Shown here in pieces: positions 35,309-49,982 of a DNA stretch of 64,000 nt. Below the pieces are notes generated by a model. That model saw only the letters and a program-made list of their open reading frames with translations, made no database searches and was not told the origin of the DNA. This DNA comes from Alistipes sp. (GTDB lineage: Bacteria > Bacteroidota > Bacteroidia > Bacteroidales > Rikenellaceae): assembly GCA_017416915.1 (NCBI GenBank), contig JAFQAN010000002.1, positions 90,669 through 154,668 on the forward strand. Reading direction: 5' to 3'. The position numbers and the translations under genes are program-made. The stretch's first letter is position 1; each line of letters begins with the position of its first letter.

Positions 35309-36397
35309 TTACTCAGCCTTCGATTCGCAATATACACAACGTACTACGCCTGGCTCGAACTGCGACTCCTCGAAACGTGGACGTACAGGTTCGAGGTTAG
35401 ATATGCAGACGGGGTTGGGACACTTGCAGCCAGCAATGGCGCGACCGTCGGCCTGCGCAAACTTTCGTTCGGGGTCGTTCTGCCACTCCAAGAGTTTGAG
35501 GATAAGAGCCATACGTACAAACTTGCCATTCTCCACCTGACGGAAGTATGCGGCGCGCGGGTCGCTATCCACGTCGATAGCAATCTCATTTACGCGGGGT
35601 AGCGGGTGTAGCACTGCCATACGCTGCTTGGCGCCCTGCATCTTATTCGCGTCGAGGATAAAGCAGTCTTTAACACGCTCATACTCCGCAAGGTCGGTAA
35701 AGCGCTCCTGCTGTACGCGTGTCATATAGAGAATGTCGATGTCGCCGATAACGCTCTCTATGTCGTTCGCCTCGCGGTACTCCACGCCATAGCGGTCGCA
35801 TACATCGCGCTTGATGTAGTCGGGCAGAGCCAACTCAGGGGGCGAGATAAGCACAAACTTGGTATTTTGGTAGCGCGTCATCGCCTTGATAAGCGAGTGA
35901 ACTGTGCGACCATACTTTAAGTCGCCCACAAAGCCTATGGTGAGGTTGTTGAGCGTACCCAACTCACGCTTGATGGTGAGCAGGTCGGTCATCGTCTGCG
36001 TAGGGTGGCTGTGGCTACCATCGCCCGCGTTGATAATAGGTGTGCGCGACACCTCTGTTGCGGCGAGGGGTGCGCCCTCGACCTTGTGTCGCATGGCGAT
36101 AATATCTGCGAAGCAGTTGATGACGCGCACGGTATCCTGCACGGTCTCTCCCTTCGATACCGACGATGAGCGGGCATCGGCAAAGCCTATCACGTTGCCG
36201 CCAAGCTCCATCATCGCCGATGTGAAGCTCAGGCGTGTACGGGTACTCGGCTCGTAAAAGAGCGTCGCGAGTTTCTTGCCACGGCACACCTCGCTATACT
36301 GTTCACGGTTGGCGATAATATCTTCTGCCAATGCTATAATCTCGGCAATCTCCTGTACCGAGAGGTCTGTGGGGTCAATCAAATGCTTCATATTCAA
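35309..36397 (-). CDS. pyrB: Aspartate carbamoyltransferase with fused PyrI-type zinc ribbon
   Basis: 362 residues. Residues 1-305 are a complete catalytic chain: [12 protein letters not shown] (51-62, carbamoyl phosphate), [13 protein letters not shown] (the 80s loop Lys), HPTQTMTD (131-138) and HPLPRVNEI (264-272). The last 40 residues ([13 protein letters not shown] … RCVYC; Cys326, 331, 354, 357) copy the zinc domain of the E. coli regulatory chain PyrI (Cys109, 114, 138, 141), including the CISxxEPV motif. The nucleotide-binding allosteric domain of PyrI is absent. It catalyses carbamoyl aspartate formation and is last in the pyr operon. Loss of CTP/ATP control is inferred. Confidence 0.95.
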
Positions 36398-36465: not shown

Positions 36466-37095
36466 CTACTTAATCCAGCTCTCGTCCGAGGGGTTGCTGC
36501 GGAAGCGCAATATACGCTCCTTATCCTCAGCCTTGATATAGCCCTCCTCGGCAGCTACCTCTACCAGAGCGTCCAAGTTCGAGAGCGAGTAGTTCTTAGC
36601 ATCGGCGGCAGCCAAGCGGTCCAAGCCCTTCTGCATACCGTAGGTGAAGATGCTCACGATGCCGAGTACGTCAGCACCCGCAGCGCGCAGTGCCTCGACA
36701 ACCTCGATGCAGCTGCCTGCCGTTGAGATAAGGTCCTCGACAACTACAACCTTCTGTCCCTTCTCCAACTTACCCTCAATCTGGTTACCGCGACCGTGGT
36801 CCTTAGAACCCGAGCGCACGTAGCCCATAGGCAGGTTAAGGATTGTTGCGGTGATGGCGGCGTGGGCGATACCCGCAGTCGATGTTCCCATAAGCACCTC
36901 TACCTCGGGGTAGTGCTTGCGGATAAGCTCCGCCAAGCCCTCCTCAACGTGGTTGCGCACCTCGGGAGCGGTCAGCGTGAGACGGTTATCGCAGTAGATG
37001 GGGCTCTTTATGCCACTTGCCCACGTGAAGGGCTGCTCGGGACGTAAAAATACTGCACCAATCGACAAAAGGTCTTTTGCTATCTTCTTTTCCAT
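36466..37095 (-). CDS. pyrE: Orotate phosphoribosyltransferase
   Basis: 209 residues. The PRPP-binding motif [21 protein letters not shown] (about 116-136) and GMGTST-like strand [14 protein letters not shown] are present, with the [11 protein letters not shown] flexible loop. It adds ribose-5-phosphate to orotate to give OMP. It lies between pyrF (56 bp upstream) and pyrB (68 bp downstream). Confidence 0.95.
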
Positions 37096-37151: not shown

Positions 37152-37856
37152 TTACTCCTCTGCGACAAACTCTCTCAGGCAACGCTCGTATGCCGCTACG
37201 GGGTCATCGGCAGCGGTGATGGGACGACCTACGACGATAAAGTCAGAGCCAATCTCGCGAGCCTTGGCAGGGGTTGTTACACGTACTTGGTCGCCTACCT
37301 CTCCATCGGCAAAGCGAACACCAGGCGTAATTGTCATAAACTCCGTGCCGCACGCCTTCTTAACCATTGCGGCCTCCAATGGCGAGCATACTACGCCGTC
37401 CAAGCCTGCAAGCTTCGTATTCTCGGCATACTTTACGATAGTGTCGTTAATCGAGGCGTTAATCAACAGCTCCTTCTGCATACGCTCCTCCGAGGTGGAG
37501 GTGAGCTGCGTAACGGCAATAAGCAATGGGCGTGTGCCATCCTCGCGTGTGAGGCCCTCGATGGCGGCGCGCATCATATCTACGGTGCCCGCAGCGTGTA
37601 CGTTGGTCATATCGACATCCAAGTTGCGGAGTACCGACATTGCCTTTTTTACGGTGTTGGGGATGTCGTGGAGTTTGAGGTCGAGGAAGATGCGATGACC
37701 ACGTGCCTTGATGGTGCGCACAATCTCGGGACCCTCGGCATAGAATAGCTCCATACCAATCTTCACAAAGGGCTTGCGACCAGTGAACTTATCCAAAAAG
37801 TTGAGTGTCTGCTCCTTGCTGCTAAAATCGCAGGCGATAATTACATCTCGTTTCAT
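37152..37856 (-). CDS. pyrF: Orotidine 5'-phosphate decarboxylase
   Basis: 234 residues. Catalytic [16 protein letters not shown] (about 58-73) with the Asp-Lys-Asp core, [13 protein letters not shown], and [22 protein letters not shown] phosphate-binding end. It converts OMP to UMP. It lies 15 bp after pyrD in the operon. Confidence 0.95.
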
Positions 37857-37871
37857 TCGTAGTTATAGGTT

Positions 37872-38792
37872 TTATTTTACTATTCCGATTATATCTCTGA
37901 GGCGCTCGATGCCAAGACGCTCCATCTCTTGGAGTAGCGCCTCGACAATTAGCTTTGAGGCGTAGGGGTTGCGCAGGTTGGCTGCACCCACCTGTACAGC
38001 AGTAGCTCCCGCCATCATCATCTCGATAACGTCTGACGCCGAGCTTACGCCGCCGCAGCCCATAACGGGAATTTGGCAGGCGTTAGCCACCTGATATACC
38101 ATACGTACCGCTACGGGGAATACTGCATCGCCCGAGAAGCCGCCCATCTTGTTGGCGATGACGGGCTTACGACGCATAGTGTCGATACGCATACCCAGTA
38201 GCGTGTTAATCAGGCAGATGCCGTCGGCTCCTGCATCCTCGCAGGCTCGTGCTATGGCAACGATGTCCGTAACGTTGGGGCTGAGCTTGATGAATACGGG
38301 TTTTGTCGTTACGCTCTTTACGCGGCGTGTTACCTCGGCTGCCGACTCGGGCTGTGTGCCGAAGCTCATACCTCCGTTGTGAACATTGGGGCAAGAGACA
38401 TTAACCTCGATAATCTCGACCTGCTCCTCCTTGTCAATCTTCGCACAGCACTCCTCATACTCCTCCAACGAGAAGCCGCTGATATTGGCGATGATAGGCT
38501 TGTGAAATATCGTGCGAAGGTGGGGTAGCTCCTCGCTAATCACGGCGTCGATGCCTGGGTTTTGCAGACCTACAGAGTTAATCATACCTGCCGAACACTC
38601 GGCGATACGTGGCGTAGGGTTGCCAAAACGTGCCTCACGCGTCGTACCCTTGAACGATATTGCGCCCAAGCAGTCGAGGTCGTAGTACTCCGCAAACTCT
38701 CTACCAAAGCCAAAGGTGCCGCTTGCAGGAATTACGGGGTTGTCGAGCTTGACACCGCACAACTCGACAGATGTATCGTAGTGAGTTACCAT
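37872..38792 (-). CDS. pyrD: Dihydroorotate dehydrogenase, class 1B catalytic subunit
   Basis: 306 residues. NPVIPASGTFGFG, GLQNPGID, EVNVSCPNVHNGG (active-site Cys) and MGCGGVSSASD are DHOD-1B signatures. FMN-dependent oxidation of dihydroorotate to orotate passes electrons to the PyrK partner and NAD+. The start overlaps the end of pyrK by 7 bp, so the two subunits are translationally coupled. Confidence 0.95.
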   Translation of the reverse strand: MVTHYDTSVELCGVKLDNPVIPASGTFGFGREFAEYYDLDCLGAISFKGTTREARFGNPTPRIAECSAGMINSVGLQNPGIDAVISEELPHLRTIFHKPIIANISGFSLEEYEECCAKIDKEEQVEIIEVNVSCPNVHNGGMSFGTQPESAAEVTRRVKSVTTKPVFIKLSPNVTDIVAIARACEDAGADGICLINTLLGMRIDTMRRKPVIANKMGGFSGDAVFPVAVRMVYQVANACQIPVMGCGGVSSASDVIEMMMAGATAVQVGAANLRNPYASKLIVEALLQEMERLGIERLRDIIGIVK

Positions 38793-39526
38793 ATTATCTC
38801 TTCGCGTTTAAGTACAGGTCCATCCTTGCAAATACGTTTGTTGCCATACTTGGTCTTGCACGAGCAACCCATACAAGCGCCAAAGCCACATCCCATACGC
38901 TCCTCGAAGCTGAACTCTGCATCTACGGTAGTTGCGTCGTAGAGCGCTTTGAGCATTGGTAGTGGTCCGCACGTGTAGAGGTAGTCGAACGTGAGAGCCT
39001 TCTCGCGTATTACATCCGTTACGAAGCCCTTGACACCCATCGAGCCGTCTGCCGTCGAGCAATATACCTCGACGCCAAGCTCGCGGAACTCGTCGTAGTA
39101 GAATAGCTCCGACTCGGTGTTGAAGCCCATAACGACCGTCGGGCGCTTACCCTCGGCAAGGAGTCGCTTGCAGAGGTTATACATCGGCGGCACACCTACA
39201 CCGCCACCTACGAGCAGCGGGCGTTGTGCGTTGTTGTCGGTCGAGAAGCCGTTACCCAAGCCTGTTAGGATGTCGAGTGTCATACCCTCGCACATCTTCG
39301 CCATCTGCTCCGTGCCGCGCCCCACTACCTTATATATAATAGTAATAGTCTGCTCGTCGTAGTCGGCGACCGATATAGGTCGGCGTAGAAACTTGCCCTC
39401 CAACTCGATGTTGATGAACTGCCCCGAACGGGTGATGTATTGCGTATCGCCCTCCAACACCATACGATATACCGTAGGTGTCAGAGGCGCGTTACTAACG
39501 ATTTTGTATATTCCCTGTTTATACAT
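38786..39526 (-). CDS. pyrK: Dihydroorotate dehydrogenase electron-transfer subunit
   Basis: 246 residues of ferredoxin-reductase type: FAD-binding RPISVAD (about 51-57), NAD-binding GGGVGVPPMYNLCKRL (about 107-122), and the C-terminal [2Fe-2S] cysteines in GCGFGACMGCSCKTKYGNKRIC. It passes electrons from PyrD to NAD+. Its ATG shares TAATG with the carB stop. Confidence 0.95.
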   Translation of the reverse strand: MYKQGIYKIVSNAPLTPTVYRMVLEGDTQYITRSGQFINIELEGKFLRRPISVADYDEQTITIIYKVVGRGTEQMAKMCEGMTLDILTGLGNGFSTDNNAQRPLLVGGGVGVPPMYNLCKRLLAEGKRPTVVMGFNTESELFYYDEFRELGVEVYCSTADGSMGVKGFVTDVIREKALTFDYLYTCGPLPMLKALYDATTVDAEFSFEERMGCGFGACMGCSCKTKYGNKRICKDGPVLKREEIIW

Positions 39527-42500: not shown

Positions 42501-42708
42501 TGAGAGGCTCCATATATATCTTGTCGGCAATATGCGTGTCGGTCATAATTGTTGCAGGGTTTGAGTTTACCAAGATAACCTGATAACCCTCCTCTTTGAG
42601 TGCAAGACACGCCTGCGTACCTGCATAGTCGAACTCGGCTGCCTGACCAATGACGATAGGTCCCGAGCCGATAACCATTACTTTCTTTATATCTGTTCTC
42701 TTAGGCAT
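39526..42708 (-). CDS. carB: Carbamoyl-phosphate synthase large subunit
   Basis: 1060 residues with two ATP-grasp halves (first about 1-545, second about 546-930; [20 protein letters not shown] and [20 protein letters not shown] mark the repeats). A C-terminal MGS-like domain (about 935-1060; [37 protein letters not shown]) follows. It makes carbamoyl phosphate from bicarbonate, two ATP and ammonia. The ammonia normally tunnels from CarA. It overlaps carA by 8 bp. Confidence 0.97.
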
Positions 42709-43789
42709 TTTTCTGCTCCTCCATCAGTTTAATGAATTTATCGAAAAGTGATGCGCTCTCTGCATCTGCCGAGCTGTCGGGCTGGTATTGTACCGAGAAT
42801 ACCTTGTCCGCAACCGATTCCATACCAGCGATGGTGTTATCTAAGATGTTGCGATGTGTAACCGTCAGCGGTGTGCCGCTTAGCGATGCCTCATCGACGG
42901 TGTAGGTGTGGTTGTGCGTTACAATGTCAATCTTGCCATTGTCGAGACATCTTACGGGGTGGTTAGCGCCGCGGTGTCCAAACTTCATCTTCACGTTCTT
43001 TGCGCCGTAGCTTAGGGCGATAAGCTGATGACCCAAATCTACGCCGAAGATAGGCAGCTTGCCACGTAGTGCCTTAACCGTGTTGCTCACGCACTCTACA
43101 TCGGCGGGGTTGCCAGGACCGTTCGAGAGGAAGATACCGTCGGGGTTGAATGCCAAAATCTCCTCGGGTGTCGAGTTGAAGGGTACGATTGTTACGTTGC
43201 AGCCCTTAGCGTTGAGCTGGCGTATGAAGCTGTGCTTGATGCCGCAGTCGATGGCAACCACGTCCCACTTGTGGTTGGGTGTACGCGAGAACCAGCGCTT
43301 CTTGCAGCTTATGCTTGCCACCTGGTCGTGTGCCTCCTGCTTCTCTTTGATGAGCTTCATCGCCTCGTCGTGTGGCATATCGAAATCTACAATTGCCGCC
43401 TTCTGAACGCCCTCGTTGCGGAGGATGCGTGTAATCATACGGGTATCGACACCTGCAATACCAGGGATGTCAAGCTCCTCGAATGTCTCGTTTAGGGTCT
43501 TTGTGTAGCGGAAGTTGCTTGGCGAGTCGCAACACTCTCTTACAACCATACCGCCCATCGAAGGATACTTACTTTCGTAGTCTTCGTCGGTAATGCCGTA
43601 GTTGCCCATAAGCGGGTAGGTCATCACCACAATCTGATCGGTGTACGTCGGGTCAGAGATAATCTCCTGGTAGCCTACCATCGAGGTATTGAACACCAAC
43701 TCGCATACCGCCACGCGGTTCGAGCCGAAGCCATATCCAGAAAATTCCTTGCCGTTTTCGAGTACAAGTTTTTTGGTAAAAGGTTTCAT
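42701..43789 (-). CDS. carA: Carbamoyl-phosphate synthase small subunit with a lost glutaminase triad
   Basis: 362 residues, well aligned to E. coli CarA end to end ([60 protein letters not shown]). The class I glutaminase triad is gone: the nucleophile motif GICLGHQ reads GVDLGHQ (Asp251 for Cys269), and QGHPEAS reads QYQPDSS (Gln336 for His353, Asp338 for Glu355). The codons (GAT, CAG, GAC) are unambiguous in the sequence. The remaining scaffold is intact, so the subunit is probably kept for structure or for ammonia-dependent CarB. It lies between pyrC and carB. Confidence 0.95.
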
Positions 43790-43815: not shown

Positions 43816-45105
43816 CTATTTGTCGTTGGTTGTAAGGGCGTCATAGACTACCTCGCCGCGGTGTATTGTCATCGCCACGTCGCCGCACATCTGGCGACCG
43901 TCGAACATCGACACCTTGCCCATCGAGAAGAACTTGTCGCTATCGACCCTCCACTCTCGTCTTGTGTCGAGCAACACCACATCGGCCCTCGCCCCTGGCT
44001 CCAAGCCGCCCTCGATGCGGAATACGCGACGGGGATTGATGCTCATAAGCTCCATGAGGCGGTCGAGCGTTATTATGCCCTTGCCCACGAGGTGTGTGTT
44101 GAGTGCCGCGAAGGCTGTCTCTAAGCCTACGATGCCCATCGCACTACGCTCCAAACCGCGCGACTTCTCCTCGACGGTGTGTGGTGCGTGGTCGGTGGCG
44201 ATGAGGTCGATTGTGCCATCCTTGATACCCTCGATAAGGGCGTCGCGGTCCTCTGCCGAGCGTAGCGGCGGGTTCATCTTCCAGCGAGCATCCTCTTCGA
44301 GGTCCATATCCGTAAATATTAGGTAGTGAGGACCCGTCTCGCAGGTAACCTTCACGCCGCGGGCCTTAGCCTCACGAATCAGCTGAACGCTCTCTTTGGT
44401 CGATATGTGGCATACGTGGTAGCGGCATCCCGTCTTTTCGGCAAGCTCGATGTCGCGCTTAATCTGCCCCCACTCGCTCTCCGAGCAGATGCCTCGGTGG
44501 TTGTGTAGTCGGGCATACTCGCCATCGTGGATGTAGCCACCACGAAGTAGCTCCTCGTCCTCGCAGTGTGCCGCAATTATGGCGTCATACTTCACCGCCT
44601 CCTGCATAGCTTGCTCCATCATCTGGCTCTGCTGTACGCCGCTACCGTCGTCCGAGAAGGCGCATACCTTGTCGTGCAGAGCTGCAAAATCTACCAGCTC
44701 CTTGCCCATACGCTTGATTGTTATTGCGGCGTAGGGTAGCACCTCAATTCGGGCATCCGTATCGATTATCTGCTGCTCCTTGGCGAGTGTTTCGACGCTG
44801 TCGGGTACGGGGTTGAGGTTGGGCATAGCACACACCGTAGAGTATCCTCCACGTGCTGCGGCAAGGCTGCCTGTGGCAATACGCTCCTTGTAGCCAAAGC
44901 CTGGCTCGCGAAGGTGGACGTGAACATCAACAAAGGCGGGGGCCGCGATTAAGCCCTCTGCCTCGATGACCTTGTCGTCGGGGTTGGGGGCTATTCGAGA
45001 GGCTATCTCAGCGATGCGTCCGTCGGTTATGGCGATGTCGCCTACGCCTCTGTAATCTGAGCCGTGAATGGTGGCTCGGCTAATGATTATTCGTTGTGTT
45101 GCCAT
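43816..45105 (-). CDS. pyrC: Dihydroorotase, class I
   Basis: 429 residues. Metal-binding VDVHVHLREPGFGYKE (about 59-74), IIAAHCEDEELL, YHVCHISTKESVQL and LIATDHAPHTVEEK supply the amidohydrolase His/Asp ligands. It closes carbamoyl aspartate to dihydroorotate. It is the first structural gene of the pyr operon. Its ATG lies only 6 bp after the T run of the leader terminator, so every functional message must first escape attenuation. Confidence 0.96.
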   Translation of the reverse strand: MATQRIIISRATIHGSDYRGVGDIAITDGRIAEIASRIAPNPDDKVIEAEGLIAAPAFVDVHVHLREPGFGYKERIATGSLAAARGGYSTVCAMPNLNPVPDSVETLAKEQQIIDTDARIEVLPYAAITIKRMGKELVDFAALHDKVCAFSDDGSGVQQSQMMEQAMQEAVKYDAIIAAHCEDEELLRGGYIHDGEYARLHNHRGICSESEWGQIKRDIELAEKTGCRYHVCHISTKESVQLIREAKARGVKVTCETGPHYLIFTDMDLEEDARWKMNPPLRSAEDRDALIEGIKDGTIDLIATDHAPHTVEEKSRGLERSAMGIVGLETAFAALNTHLVGKGIITLDRLMELMSINPRRVFRIEGGLEPGARADVVLLDTRREWRVDSDKFFSMGKVSMFDGRQMCGDVAMTIHRGEVVYDALTTNDK

Positions 45106-46277: not shown

Positions 46278-49200
46278 ATGAAGAATCGCCGCATATTTGT
46301 TGAAAAATATCCTCGCTTCCAAGTCGAGGCAGATACGCTTCTTAGGGAGCTTAATACAAACCTGGGCCTAAACATTAAGAAGCTGCGTTATATCAACGTT
46401 TATGACCTCTTTGGCTTCTCGGATGAGTTGCTTGAAAAGAGCCGTTATAGCGTCTTTGGCGAGGTGGTAACCGACTTGGTGTCGGACGAGTGCGACTTCG
46501 AGGGCTGCCCCTCGTTGGCTGTCGAATACCTCCCTGGTCAGTTCGACCAACGTGCAGCATCGGCTGTCGATTGTGTCCACCTTATCGACCCTAAGGCTGA
46601 GGTGCGCATCAAGTCGTCGCGTCTGCTTATCTTTGATAAGTCGCTTACCGATGCCGAGTTGGCACGTATCGAAAAGTACTATATCAACACCGTCGAGTCG
46701 CGCAAGAAGAATCTCGATATTTTATCCGACGCCGAGAGCGCAGAGGTTAAGCCTGTTCCCGTGTTGGAGGGTTTTCGAGAGATGACCGAGGAGCAACTTG
46801 CCCCCTACTGTAAGCAGAACGGTCTGGCGATGAATGGCGACGACCTTCGAGAGGTGGTAAACTACTTCCGTACGGAGGGTCGCGACCCCTTCGAGACGGA
46901 GCTACGTATCTTGGATACCTATTGGAGCGACCACTGTCGCCACACCACCTTCACTACCGAAATCGAGGAGATTACCCTCGACGAATCGTTCTTGAAGGAG
47001 GAGTTGGAGTCGTCGTTGGAGCTTATGCACAACATCCGCACGGAGCTGGGTCGTCAGCAGAAGAGCCTATGCCTTATGGAGCTTGCAACCATCGGTGCGC
47101 GCTACTTGCGTAAGGTGGGTAAGCTCGACGATATGGAGCAGTCGGAGGAGAATAACGCTTGCAGCATCTTTGTAAATGTGGATGTTGATGGCGAGATGCA
47201 GCGTTGGTTGTTGCAGTTCAAGAACGAGACACATAATCACCCCACCGAGATTGAGCCTTTTGGCGGTGCCTCTACCTGTTTGGGTGGAGCTATCCGCGAC
47301 CCGCTGTCGGGACGTAGCTACGTCTATCAGGCGATGCGTGTAACGGGTGCTGGGGATATTTATAAGAGTGTTGATGAGACGTTGGAGGGTAAGCTCCCCC
47401 AGCGTATCATCTCTACGAAGGCTGCGGCAGGCTATTCGAGCTACGGCAATCAGATAGGTCTTGCCACTACGCACGTTCGCGAGATCTTCCACCCCAACTA
47501 TGTGGCGAAGCGTATGGAGGTAGGTGCTGTTGTTGGCGCCGTTAAGGCTGACAATGTGCGCCGTGAGAGTCCTACGCCTGGCGATGTGGTGCTGTTGCTT
47601 GGCGGTCGTACGGGTCGTGATGGTGTTGGTGGTGCTACTGGCTCATCGAAGGAGCATACGCTGACATCGTTGGAGAAGTGTAGCTCGGAGGTGCAGAAGG
47701 GTAACGCTCCCGAGGAGCGCAAGCTCTCGCGTCTGTTCCGCAGAGGCGATGTTACACGCCTTATCAAGAAGTCGAACGACTTTGGCGCAGGTGGTGTGAG
47801 TGTGGCTATCGGCGAGCTTACCGACGGCTTGGATATATACCTTGATAGAGTGCCTACCAAGTATAACGGACTGAACTCTACGGAGCTTGCCATCAGTGAG
47901 TCGCAGGAGCGTATGGCTGTTGTTGTCGAGCGTGGCGATATGGAGCGTTTCGTAGAGCTGTGTGGCGAGGAGAATGTCGAGGTTACGTATGTTGCCGACG
48001 TTACTGATACACGCCGTATGCGTATGTTCTCGGGCGATAAGCTCGTTGTGGATTTGTCGCGCGATTTTATCGACTCGGCAGGTGCAAAGCACTATACGAA
48101 GATATGTCTTGGCGCTGTCGAGCATAAAAATCCGTTCGAGCGCAAGGTTGAGGGTGCAAGTGTCGAGGAGCGTATGAAGCGTAACCTTGCCGACGACAAC
48201 GTGGTGTCGCAGAAGGGTCTTATCGAGATGTTTGACTCGACAATCGGTGCCTCTACCGTGCTTATGCCTTTTGGTGGTAAGACACAGTGTACCGAGACCC
48301 AGGTGTCGGTGCAGAAGCTCCCTGTGGGCAATGCCTATACCAATACAGCAAGTGTTATGGCGTTCGGCTATAACCCCTACATCGCTACGTGGAGTCCCTA
48401 CCACGGTGCCGCCTATGCCGTTGTTGAGGCGTGTGCGAAGGTGGTAGCATCGGGCGCTCGCTACGATAAGATGCGCTTCTCATATCAGGAGTATTTCGAG
48501 CGTATGACCGACGCCCGTTCGTGGGGTAAGCCTATGTCGGCACTGCTCGGCGCGTTAAAGATGCAGGTGGCACTCGGTCTGCCCTCAATCGGTGGTAAGG
48601 ACTCGATGAGCGGCACGTTCCGCGATATTGACGTTCCGCCTATGCTTATGGCATTTGGTATCACGACTGTCGATGCTCGTACGGTCATCAGCCCCGAGTT
48701 TAAGACGGCTAATAATAATATATATGTAATACGCCATACTCCCGAGGCCAACTATATGCCTTCGGTAGAGTCTTTGAAGCGTAACTTCGACTTCGTGTCG
48801 CAGAAGATTGCCGAGGGCGACATTGTCTCTGCCTATGCAGTAGGCTTTGGAGGTGTTGGCGAGGCTGTCTCGAAGATGGCGTTCGGTAATATGGTAGGTG
48901 CGGAGCTTACGTGCGACGAGCAGATGCTCTACAACTACTCGTATGGCTCTATCGTTGTTGAGAGCCGCCGTACGCTCAACTTCCCAGCTGCCGAGCTTAT
49001 CGGTAGGACTTCGGAGGAGGAGACAATCACCGTTGCGGGCGTTGCTCTCTCGCTCGACGAGCTGCTTAAAGCCAATACGGAGCGCTTTACGCAGGTATAT
49101 GCCGATAGGGGTGCTGCTGGTACTACTACCCGCCTAAGTGAGGGTGCTGAGCGCAAGGTGGAGTATCGTGGCGAGAAGGTCGATAAGGTGCGAGTATATA

Positions 49201-49982
49201 TACCAGTCTTCCCTGGTACGAACTGCGACTATGATACGGCACGTGCCTTCGAGAGGGCTGGTGCCGAGGTTGAGGTGTCGGTATTCCGTAACCTCACAAG
49301 CGAGGATGTCTTCGACTCTATCGCGCAGATGAAGTCGTGCATCGAGCGTTGCCATATTATGGCGCTCAGTGGTGGCTTCTCGGCGGGCGACGAGCCAGAC
49401 GGTAGTGGTAAGTTTATCGCCAACGTGCTGAATAACAAGGATGTTGCCGATGCTATCCACGCGCTGTTGGACCGTGGCGGTCTGATGCTCGGTATCTGTA
49501 ACGGCTTCCAGGCGTTGGTTAAGTCGGGTCTGTTGCCCTATGGTCGCTTGGGTAAGGTTACCAAGTCATCGCCTACGCTCTTCCGCAACGATATTAATCG
49601 TCATATCTCGCAGATTGTCTCTACGCGTGTGGGTACTACGGCGTCGCCGTGGCTCTCGTCGTTCGAGGTTGGCGACCTGCACTCTATCGCTGTCAGCCAC
49701 GGTGAGGGTAAGTTTGTGGTTAGCGACGAGCTTGCCGACGAGCTGTTTAGCAATGGTCAGGTGGCATTCCAGTATGTCGATGCGGAGGGTTGCCCCACAA
49801 CCGATTCGCCCTACAACCCCAACGGTTCGAGCTTCGCCATCGAGGGTATTATCGACCCCAGCGGACAGATTTTGGGTAAGATGGGACATACGGAGCGTTA
49901 TGAGCGCGATTTGATGAAGAATATCCACGGCAACAAGATACAGGATATCTTCTCGAACGCCGTTCGTTACTTCCGCCGCTAA
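46278..49982 (+). CDS. purL: Phosphoribosylformylglycinamidine synthase, large single-chain type
   Basis: 1234 residues, the fused form with N-terminal PurS-like segment, two AIRS-like halves (QFKNETHNHPTEIEPFGGAS at about 310; GFGGVGEAVSKMAFG) and a C-terminal class I glutaminase (about 975-1234). The glutaminase keeps its nucleophile in GLMLGICNGFQALVKSG and the His in AVSHGEGKFV. It turns FGAR into FGAM using glutamine and ATP. Note the contrast with CarA in the divergent operon, whose glutaminase triad is lost. Confidence 0.97.
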   Translation: MKNRRIFVEKYPRFQVEADTLLRELNTNLGLNIKKLRYINVYDLFGFSDELLEKSRYSVFGEVVTDLVSDECDFEGCPSLAVEYLPGQFDQRAASAVDCVHLIDPKAEVRIKSSRLLIFDKSLTDAELARIEKYYINTVESRKKNLDILSDAESAEVKPVPVLEGFREMTEEQLAPYCKQNGLAMNGDDLREVVNYFRTEGRDPFETELRILDTYWSDHCRHTTFTTEIEEITLDESFLKEELESSLELMHNIRTELGRQQKSLCLMELATIGARYLRKVGKLDDMEQSEENNACSIFVNVDVDGEMQRWLLQFKNETHNHPTEIEPFGGASTCLGGAIRDPLSGRSYVYQAMRVTGAGDIYKSVDETLEGKLPQRIISTKAAAGYSSYGNQIGLATTHVREIFHPNYVAKRMEVGAVVGAVKADNVRRESPTPGDVVLLLGGRTGRDGVGGATGSSKEHTLTSLEKCSSEVQKGNAPEERKLSRLFRRGDVTRLIKKSNDFGAGGVSVAIGELTDGLDIYLDRVPTKYNGLNSTELAISESQERMAVVVERGDMERFVELCGEENVEVTYVADVTDTRRMRMFSGDKLVVDLSRDFIDSAGAKHYTKICLGAVEHKNPFERKVEGASVEERMKRNLADDNVVSQKGLIEMFDSTIGASTVLMPFGGKTQCTETQVSVQKLPVGNAYTNTASVMAFGYNPYIATWSPYHGAAYAVVEACAKVVASGARYDKMRFSYQEYFERMTDARSWGKPMSALLGALKMQVALGLPSIGGKDSMSGTFRDIDVPPMLMAFGITTVDARTVISPEFKTANNNIYVIRHTPEANYMPSVESLKRNFDFVSQKIAEGDIVSAYAVGFGGVGEAVSKMAFGNMVGAELTCDEQMLYNYSYGSIVVESRRTLNFPAAELIGRTSEEETITVAGVALSLDELLKANTERFTQVYADRGAAGTTTRLSEGAERKVEYRGEKVDKVRVYIPVFPGTNCDYDTARAFERAGAEVEVSVFRNLTSEDVFDSIAQMKSCIERCHIMALSGGFSAGDEPDGSGKFIANVLNNKDVADAIHALLDRGGLMLGICNGFQALVKSGLLPYGRLGKVTKSSPTLFRNDINRHISQIVSTRVGTTASPWLSSFEVGDLHSIAVSHGEGKFVVSDELADELFSNGQVAFQYVDAEGCPTTDSPYNPNGSSFAIEGIIDPSGQILGKMGHTERYERDLMKNIHGNKIQDIFSNAVRYFRR

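Follow-up and report, generated by a model that had tools for sequence, protein, structure and literature searches.

Recurrent loss of the carbamoyl phosphate synthetase glutaminase site in Alistipes and its relatives suggests pyrimidine synthesis from free ammonia

With its glutamine channelling, carbamoyl phosphate synthetase (CPS) is a textbook example of an enzyme that shields ammonia in a tunnel; a G359F change in E. coli, attributed to Thoden et al. 2002, reportedly opens an ammonia escape route. The excerpt of one review that we drew on classes bacterial CPS as glutamine-dependent (PMC6022934), and a passage of another review states that the E. coli enzyme requires ammonia at very high concentrations, which probably have no physiological relevance (PMC6245113). 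In mitochondrial CPS I, human CPS1 has Ser294 in place of the nucleophilic Cys and uses free ammonia; its Gln318 blocks the old tunnel at Gly293, an ammonia-tunnel position, and ammonia is thought to reach the same gate otherwise, according to the sections of PMC4655335 consulted. Among the matches listed in a search of open-licence full text, which is weak evidence of absence, there was no report of a bacterial CarA lacking its catalytic triad or of a loss of carA with carB kept.

The window is a stretch of 64,000 nucleotides from an Alistipes sp. assembly (GCA_017416915.1, contig JAFQAN010000002.1, positions 90,669 to 154,668). It holds a complete pyrimidine operon on its minus strand, in the order pyrC, carA, carB, pyrK, pyrD, pyrF, pyrE, pyrB, and the genes used in this study are the following:

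43816..45105, minus strand: pyrC, dihydroorotase, the operon gene upstream of carA
42701..43789, minus strand: carA, CPS small subunit with a dead glutaminase site, 362 aa
39526..42708, minus strand: carB, CPS large subunit, intact, 1060 aa, with an 8-base overlap with carA
38786..39526, minus strand: pyrK, dihydroorotate dehydrogenase electron-transfer subunit (top model 246 bits, below its own cut-off of 314)
37872..38792, minus strand: pyrD, dihydroorotate dehydrogenase
37152..37856, minus strand: pyrF, orotidine-5'-phosphate decarboxylase
36466..37095, minus strand: pyrE, orotate phosphoribosyltransferase
35309..36397, minus strand: pyrB, aspartate carbamoyltransferase, with a C-terminal piece resembling the end of PyrI
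46278..49982, plus strand: purL, an amidotransferase with its Cys and His kept, a control for general decay

In a profile search, the window's CarA scored 410 bits against TIGR01368 (cut-off 307) and matched PF00988 and PF00117, each across almost its whole length. It thus combines homology over both domains with an adjacent carB, as expected of a CPS small subunit, and lacks the Cys-His-Glu triad by which CPS II is defined (D251, Q336, and D338). The protein is ~63-66% identical to clostridial CarA versus 36-39% to the CarA of other Bacteroidales, which suggests that the operon is of clostridial origin. Elsewhere in the operon, residues 324-360 of PyrB match the C-terminal end of the aspartate carbamoyltransferase regulatory chain model TIGR00240, and no separate PyrI was noticed.

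The initial annotation had proposed that Asp251, Gln336, and Asp338 stand where E. coli CarA has Cys269, His353, and Glu355. Alignments to two E. coli references, CarA from the PDB and CarA from the MG1655 record, agree with that assignment, as do the codons themselves (E. coli numbering for the residues replaced):

43037..43039, minus strand: codon 251, GAT, Asp in place of the nucleophile Cys269 (alignment to E. coli CarA)
42782..42784, minus strand: codon 336, CAG, encoding Gln where E. coli CarA has His353 (alignment)
42776..42778, minus strand: codon 338, GAC, encoding Asp where E. coli CarA has Glu355 (alignment)
42965..42967, minus strand: codon 275, Ala where E. coli CarA has Gly293 of the ammonia tunnel (alignment)
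42755..42775, minus strand: codons 339-345, a loop corresponding roughly to E. coli 356-362, without Gly359 (alignment and model)

Beyond the triad, the alignment shows S47T and the loss of Gly359 together with its loop. The change of Gly293 to Ala is found in the window's CarA and most of its clade; it is not diagnostic of the loss, because 14 of 86 intact rows also have Ala. The predicted fold of the window's CarA is confident (pLDDT 88.5), with residues 339-343, in the Gly359 loop, below 50; the model of an intact sister, L140, is almost identical in its elements, and no segment of it falls below 50. Alignment and model together therefore describe the state known from CPS I, in which the nucleophile is replaced and the glutaminase domain is retained. 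A sequencing error is excluded as the source of the loss, since the 30 closest named relatives (L034-L063) all lack the Cys: D/Q/D is present in 25 of them, and the remaining five carry G/Q/D, D/Q/A, D/Q/S, or G/H/N. In the CarA tree, 30 of the 36 rows of the window's clade are DQD, and GQD, DQA, GHN, and a gap also occur in the clade.

A second, intact carA/carB pair, which had been named as one observation that would overturn this interpretation, was searched for in the window's own genome (1.97 Mb, 92.8% complete). The PF00117 search returned three matches, namely the window's CarA, GuaA, and PyrG, and so no second CarA was found in this 92.8% complete assembly; it has one CarB, and carbamate kinase had no match. 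Nor was a second CarA found in five other genomes of the window's clade (G142, G004, G161, G111, and G086). Carbamate kinase was also rejected as another source of carbamoyl phosphate more widely: 0 of the 19 genomes searched for it exceeded the cut-off, and 2 weak partial matches were seen. The initial annotation had further held that PurL keeps its Cys and His and that CarA is not a case of general decay. Both statements hold: PurL retains Cys1074 and His1141, and GuaA and PyrG of the same genome retain their Cys and HPE motifs, which rules out a general loss of amidotransferases in this genome. Judged from these motifs, the loss is specific to CarA among the amidotransferases checked there.

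The alignment of CarA across Bacteroidales that had been proposed as a check placed the loss, among the sequences read, within one group. Outside the genus, the triad is C/H/E in 50 of the 50 CarA sequences read (30 best and 20 low-ranked matches; a match was present in 156 of the 295 genomes searched), and inside the genus it was lost repeatedly. Among loci chosen by likeness to the window's CarA, the next 50 after the window's clade (L064-L113) are likewise C/H/E in 50 of 50; rows labelled C/H/E in our CarA alignment are intact by definition. The genus set comprised 180 genomes of relatives labelled Alistipes or Rikenellaceae, 161 of them with a CarA match, which was a single match in 154. 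Operon CarA was read in 121 of these 161, as best matches plus hand-picked genomes and not as a random draw: 82 lacked the Cys and 39 had Cys-His-Glu (38 plus G176, counted as intact with one CarA fragment unreadable and its readable CarA C/H/E). The Cys is replaced in the 82 genomes by D, G, S, A, N, or E. By lineage, the triads are D/Q/D in the window's clade and, elsewhere, S/H/E, S/Y/E, A/H/E, G/H/E, G/N/E, E/N/E, N/H/E, S/N/E, and G/D or G/E with a loop change. A D/Q/D label listed beside G174 and G201 in the GuaA reading was disregarded, as it most likely stems from isolate names resembling genome handles (SIG174, RGIG2011).

Several genomes depart from this pattern in other ways. Four (G166, G172, G201, and G202; L218-L222, L310) carry, besides a G/H/E operon CarA, a second and distantly related CarAB whose triad is intact, and these four keep a full-length GuaA. 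G149 (L224/L309; 8% contamination) has a CarA of native Bacteroidales type that reads G/I/E at the triad and is followed or preceded by an intact CarB; it may stem from a different organism in the bin, and it is a possible further loss. In several relatives (e.g., G017, G025, G106, G131, G139, and G155), carA ends with TAG in frame with carB, giving a joint frame of ~1420-1435 codons with a single stop inside.

To count origins, we placed the Cys label on three trees. The CarA tree (141 rows, with active-site columns left out) needs 5 changes, and 5 are forced by well-supported branches. The CarB tree (118 rows, including the carA-less lineage described below) needs 7 changes, 6 of them forced; L184 falls outside its CarA clade in this tree, and the one extra change it causes was not counted. 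A tree of guaB, a separate locus, in 28 genomes needs 5 changes, 4 of them forced. The change counts themselves have no direction, and the changes are read as losses because the outgroup rows are intact. Read in this way, the trees point to about five origins of CarA Cys loss by substitution and, with one deletion, to about six lineages that lost the CPS glutaminase.

The deletion is found in four genomes (G090, G031, G148, and G151), in which no carA lies between pyrC and carB and carB is intact. Their operon order is pyrC-carB-pyrK-pyrD-pyrF-pyrE-pyrB, with pyrB cut by the end of the stretch in G031, and none of the four operons has any other same-strand frame of at least 90 codons between pyrC and carB. 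The genus search gave no CarA match in any of the four, and PF00988 had no match in G090, the most complete of the carA-less genomes (92%). Their CarB is 1062 aa long and ~77% identical to the window's CarB, and has a median dN/dS of 0.036; an MGS-like C-terminal domain is present in a carA-less CarB. A conserved CarB without CarA is hard to explain except through the use of ammonia or a partner in trans. In total, 19 of the 180 genus genomes had no CarA match, and 12 of the 19 had a match to a CarB domain. Other candidates for carA deletion were rejected: in G108, G110, G095, and G018, the CarB is a distant, stand-alone protein (~40% identity) and not the operon CarB, in G173, G178, and G179 the contig breaks off at this place, and G117 has a partial CarB match. 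The distant stand-alone CarB (L291-L294, L302-L308), which has no adjoining CarA and occurs in genomes without a CarA match, is also present in other Bacteroidales families; the L307 stretch is a short contig.

The genes that remain are working genes. By a simple count method applied to pairs with dS of 0.1-1.2, median dN/dS of CarA is 0.07-0.16 in the lost clades versus 0.18 in intact genomes, and that of CarB is 0.036-0.064 in the lost clades (0.045-0.064 where it stands beside a CarA) versus 0.118 in intact genomes. By this measure, both subunits in the lost clades are under purifying selection. In CarA, 29 active-site and tunnel positions besides the triad were compared. Sixteen of them show no variation across the 86 intact rows, yet 11 of these 16 vary in the 87 triad-lost rows (47, 202, 292, 294, 295, 311, 312, 351, 359, 360, and 362). 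The CarB gate (C232, A251, and A314) and E25, E217, R306, and S307 are unchanged in every lost row read, the window's clade included, and A251 is C in one intact row. Elsewhere, CarB has changed repeatedly. Of the 721 columns that intact rows conserve, 24 are altered in at least two of the five lost clades against 7.8 expected under random placement, and 11 changed in at least three against 0.27 expected, with the single lineage L159 excluded and with a null that ignores rate differences between columns. Seventeen of the 24 recurrent columns lie at E. coli positions 250-360 or 525-556 (background 115/721; hypergeometric p 1.3e-9). Counted by clade, these stretches take up 66 of the 124 changes in the lost clades versus 5 of 53 in eight intact control sub-clades; the stretches were chosen after the changes were seen. 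CarA contacts the carboxyphosphate and oligomerisation domains of CarB, as stated in a portion of a review (PMC6245113), and these two domains hold nearly all of the recurrent stretches. That the exact recurrent residues face CarA is what we infer from these domain contacts, with the stretches picked post hoc.

A second glutamine amidotransferase of nucleotide synthesis shows a parallel change. We read 68 GuaA sequences of two kinds. Long GuaA (~509 aa) has the Cys and HPE in 32 of 32, and short GuaA (431 aa) has, in 36 of 36, an N-terminal remnant with neither the Cys motif nor HPE; all five synthetase motifs checked are present in the short form. According to an excerpt of a review (PMC10526850), the synthetase part of GMP synthetases does not depend on the glutaminase part for its activity and is able to take up external ammonia in vitro. 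Short and long GuaA have a median identity of 48%, the short form has a median identity of 90% within itself, and it makes up one clade in the GuaA tree, which means that its spread was repeated and not its origin. GuaA kind needs 5 changes on the guaB tree, and guaB adjoins short GuaA in 15 of 15 genomes checked. Short GuaA thus looks like a foreign guaA that spread horizontally and replaced the native gene several times. Its loci (L316, L317, L318, and L330-L362) belong to five lineages, and five of the six lost lineages have it, the carA-less one included and the window's excepted.

GuaA kind was assigned mostly by frame length in 146 genomes among the matches listed, with the contig-cut G105, G106, G154, and G192 omitted; 43 of the 146 had no CarA sequence, and 103 were classed for both CarA and GuaA. 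Among the matches listed, short GuaA occurs in 0 of 33 intact genomes, 36 of 36 other lost genomes, 3 of 3 carA-less genomes, 0 of 27 genomes of the window's clade, and 0 of the 4 that carry an additional, intact CarAB, and no short GuaA was found beside an intact CarA in the 103 genomes; these counts are not independent, as the genomes are related. When CarA loss is set against GuaA kind, well-supported branches give five independent pairs, of which an average of 4.9 agree in direction (sign test p 0.0625); on the guaB tree, where power is weak, 3 of 4 pairs agree (p 0.25). The window's clade keeps a full GuaA (27 of 27, among the matches listed), so the purine signal does not cover it and loss in CarA can occur without loss in GuaA. 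One member of this clade, G086 (98% complete), has no GuaA match among the matches listed. In the carA-less G090, G031, and G148, the glutaminase domain search found no PyrG-type domain, and PyrG may be shortened or missing there.

Nitrogen supply was surveyed in the same genus set. The initial annotation had linked the loss to an ammonia-rich gut; that link rests on the hindgut labels of relatives and on the absence of AmtB. Of the named members of the window's clade (L034-L063), 27 are isolates labelled ruminant caecum, colon, or rectum, and 3 carry no site. AmtB was not found in 175 of the 180 genus genomes, intact and lost alike; it was rejected as a cause or correlate of the loss, since its absence is common to intact genomes and so marks the genus, and it fits ammonia-rich surroundings all the same. 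A glutamine synthetase family match is present in 161 of 180 genomes, the window's own included, so glutamine shortage is unlikely as a general cause. Nine of the 19 genomes without this match belong to the window's clade and are 63-90% complete. In that clade, glutamine synthetase thus has no match in 9 of 36 genomes, most of the others have ~500-590 codons, and the window's genome has 730.

The reading that we judge very probable is that this CarAB is an ammonia-dependent carbamoyl phosphate synthetase feeding pyrimidine synthesis. Because the glutaminase site was lost repeatedly and the whole subunit was deleted in some relatives, bacteria of the lost lineages probably build their pyrimidines from free ammonia. 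Genomic evidence (triad loss, no second CarA, and recurrence) thus supports what the initial annotation had put forward, namely that the glutaminase is lost, that the enzyme depends on free ammonia, and that decay is not general. The comparison also extends that annotation: the loss is recurrent, carA was deleted once, and GuaA is also affected in five lineages. CarA would be kept as a structural or regulatory partner of CarB, like the dead glutaminase domain of CPS I. Free NH3, taken as plentiful in the hindgut, would get in either at the altered Gly359 loop or along a side path of the kind thought to operate in human CPS1. The NH3 would then pass the unchanged CarB gate (Cys232/Ala251/Ala314) and attack carboxyphosphate. 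The recurrent CarB changes at 253-357 and 528-555 (E. coli numbering) may adapt the CarA-facing side or ammonia entry, and in one lineage CarB may eventually have become able to do without CarA. The payoff would be one glutamine, and hence one ATP, saved per carbamoyl phosphate. The main doubt concerns the ammonia affinity of CarAB, since E. coli CPS uses ammonia poorly.

Among other explanations, the one to which we give most weight, improbable as it is, has another glutaminase or asparaginase supplying ammonia in trans, docked on CarB or raising the local ammonia, so that the enzyme would remain indirectly fed by glutamine. The glutamine synthetase match in most lost lineages suits such a supply. 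The four carA-less operons, with the gene set otherwise the same, offer no extra frame of at least 90 codons between pyrC and carB as a candidate partner, a CPS-specific partner would not explain why GuaA changed in the same direction, and the corresponding question for NAD synthetase was settled in favour of free ammonia, according to the part of PMC3376133 consulted. We regard as very improbable that carbamoyl phosphate synthesis is no longer needed, with pyrimidines salvaged and carA on its way out. The deletion of carA in one lineage and the 19 of 180 genomes without a CarA match, some through incompleteness, would be expected of such decay; against it, CarA frames are open with median dN/dS of 0.07-0.16, CarB in the lost clades is more constrained (0.036-0.064) than in intact genomes (0.118), and the carA-less operons keep the other pyr genes.

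The two remaining accounts are extremely improbable in our view, and equally so. Asp251, Gln336, and Asp338 could form a new hydrolase or a binding site, as the good conservation of DQD (30 of 36 rows of the window's clade in the tree) might hint; yet in other lineages the nucleophile is replaced by G, S, A, N, or E and its two partner residues differ, the clade itself contains GQD, DQA, GHN, and a gap, and carA is dispensable in one lineage. Alternatively, an intact carA could lie in the unassembled 7% of the 92.8% complete genome, given that a second CarAB, its triad intact, is present in four genomes from a different lost sub-clade, or the carA described here could be a contaminant. However, no second CarA was found in G142, G004, G161, G111, and G086, the match is single in 154 of 161 CarA-bearing genus genomes, and the gene lies inside a 64 kb window and belongs to a clade seen in 30 named assemblies.

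With ammonia-dependent CarAB as the preferred reading, we hold with moderate confidence to a broader one, in which gut lineages of one genus converged on glutamine-independent nucleotide synthesis. The CPS glutaminase would have been lost about six times, once by deletion of carA; a GuaA with a truncated, Cys-less glutaminase half would have reached five of the six by horizontal spread and taken the place of the native guaA beside guaB; and CTP synthase may be following in the carA-less lineage, so that ammonia-rich hindguts would be dismantling the amidotransferase step. The repeated loss of the glutaminase, and once of the whole subunit, provides natural replicates of the transition from CPS II to CPS I, and sister pairs such as the intact L140 and the window can show which changes allow the use of outside ammonia. 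If the reading is true, it links a core biosynthetic enzyme with the ammonia of the gut, and the response of these commensals to diet and to urease activity could be affected.

The closest known systems bracket the enzyme on two sides. Like mitochondrial CPS I (human CPS1, PDB 5dot), to which it is homologous over the whole small subunit, it keeps a dead glutaminase as a folded domain. Unlike CPS I, it consists of two bacterial subunits encoded by separate carA and carB and serves pyrimidines, and it has lost all three triad residues, with the tunnel position Gly293 only Ala and not blocked by Gln. With E. coli CarAB (CPS II) it shares the subunits, the operon role, homology over both domains, and the unchanged CarB gate, whereas the residues that define glutamine hydrolysis are lost. 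Three other systems resemble it in part. The small CPS of Methanobrevibacter smithii, also a gut microbe, is described in an excerpt of PMC6022934 as two synthetase units with no glutaminase; it differs in being built from a 41 kDa unit that functions as a dimer and in not being a CarAB deprived of its partner. Single-domain ammonia-dependent NAD synthetases belong to a family likewise split between glutamine and ammonia use, but their use of ammonia is judged ancestral in the portion of PMC3376133 consulted, and Alistipes CarA would represent a repeated later loss. For CarAB of Blochmannia vafer, use of free ammonia has also been suggested; glutamine synthetase is missing there, and the consulted passages of PMC3017870 do not mention a loss of the CarA site. 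On balance, the best reading of these parallels is that the Alistipes CPS works like mitochondrial CPS I without being a member of that family.
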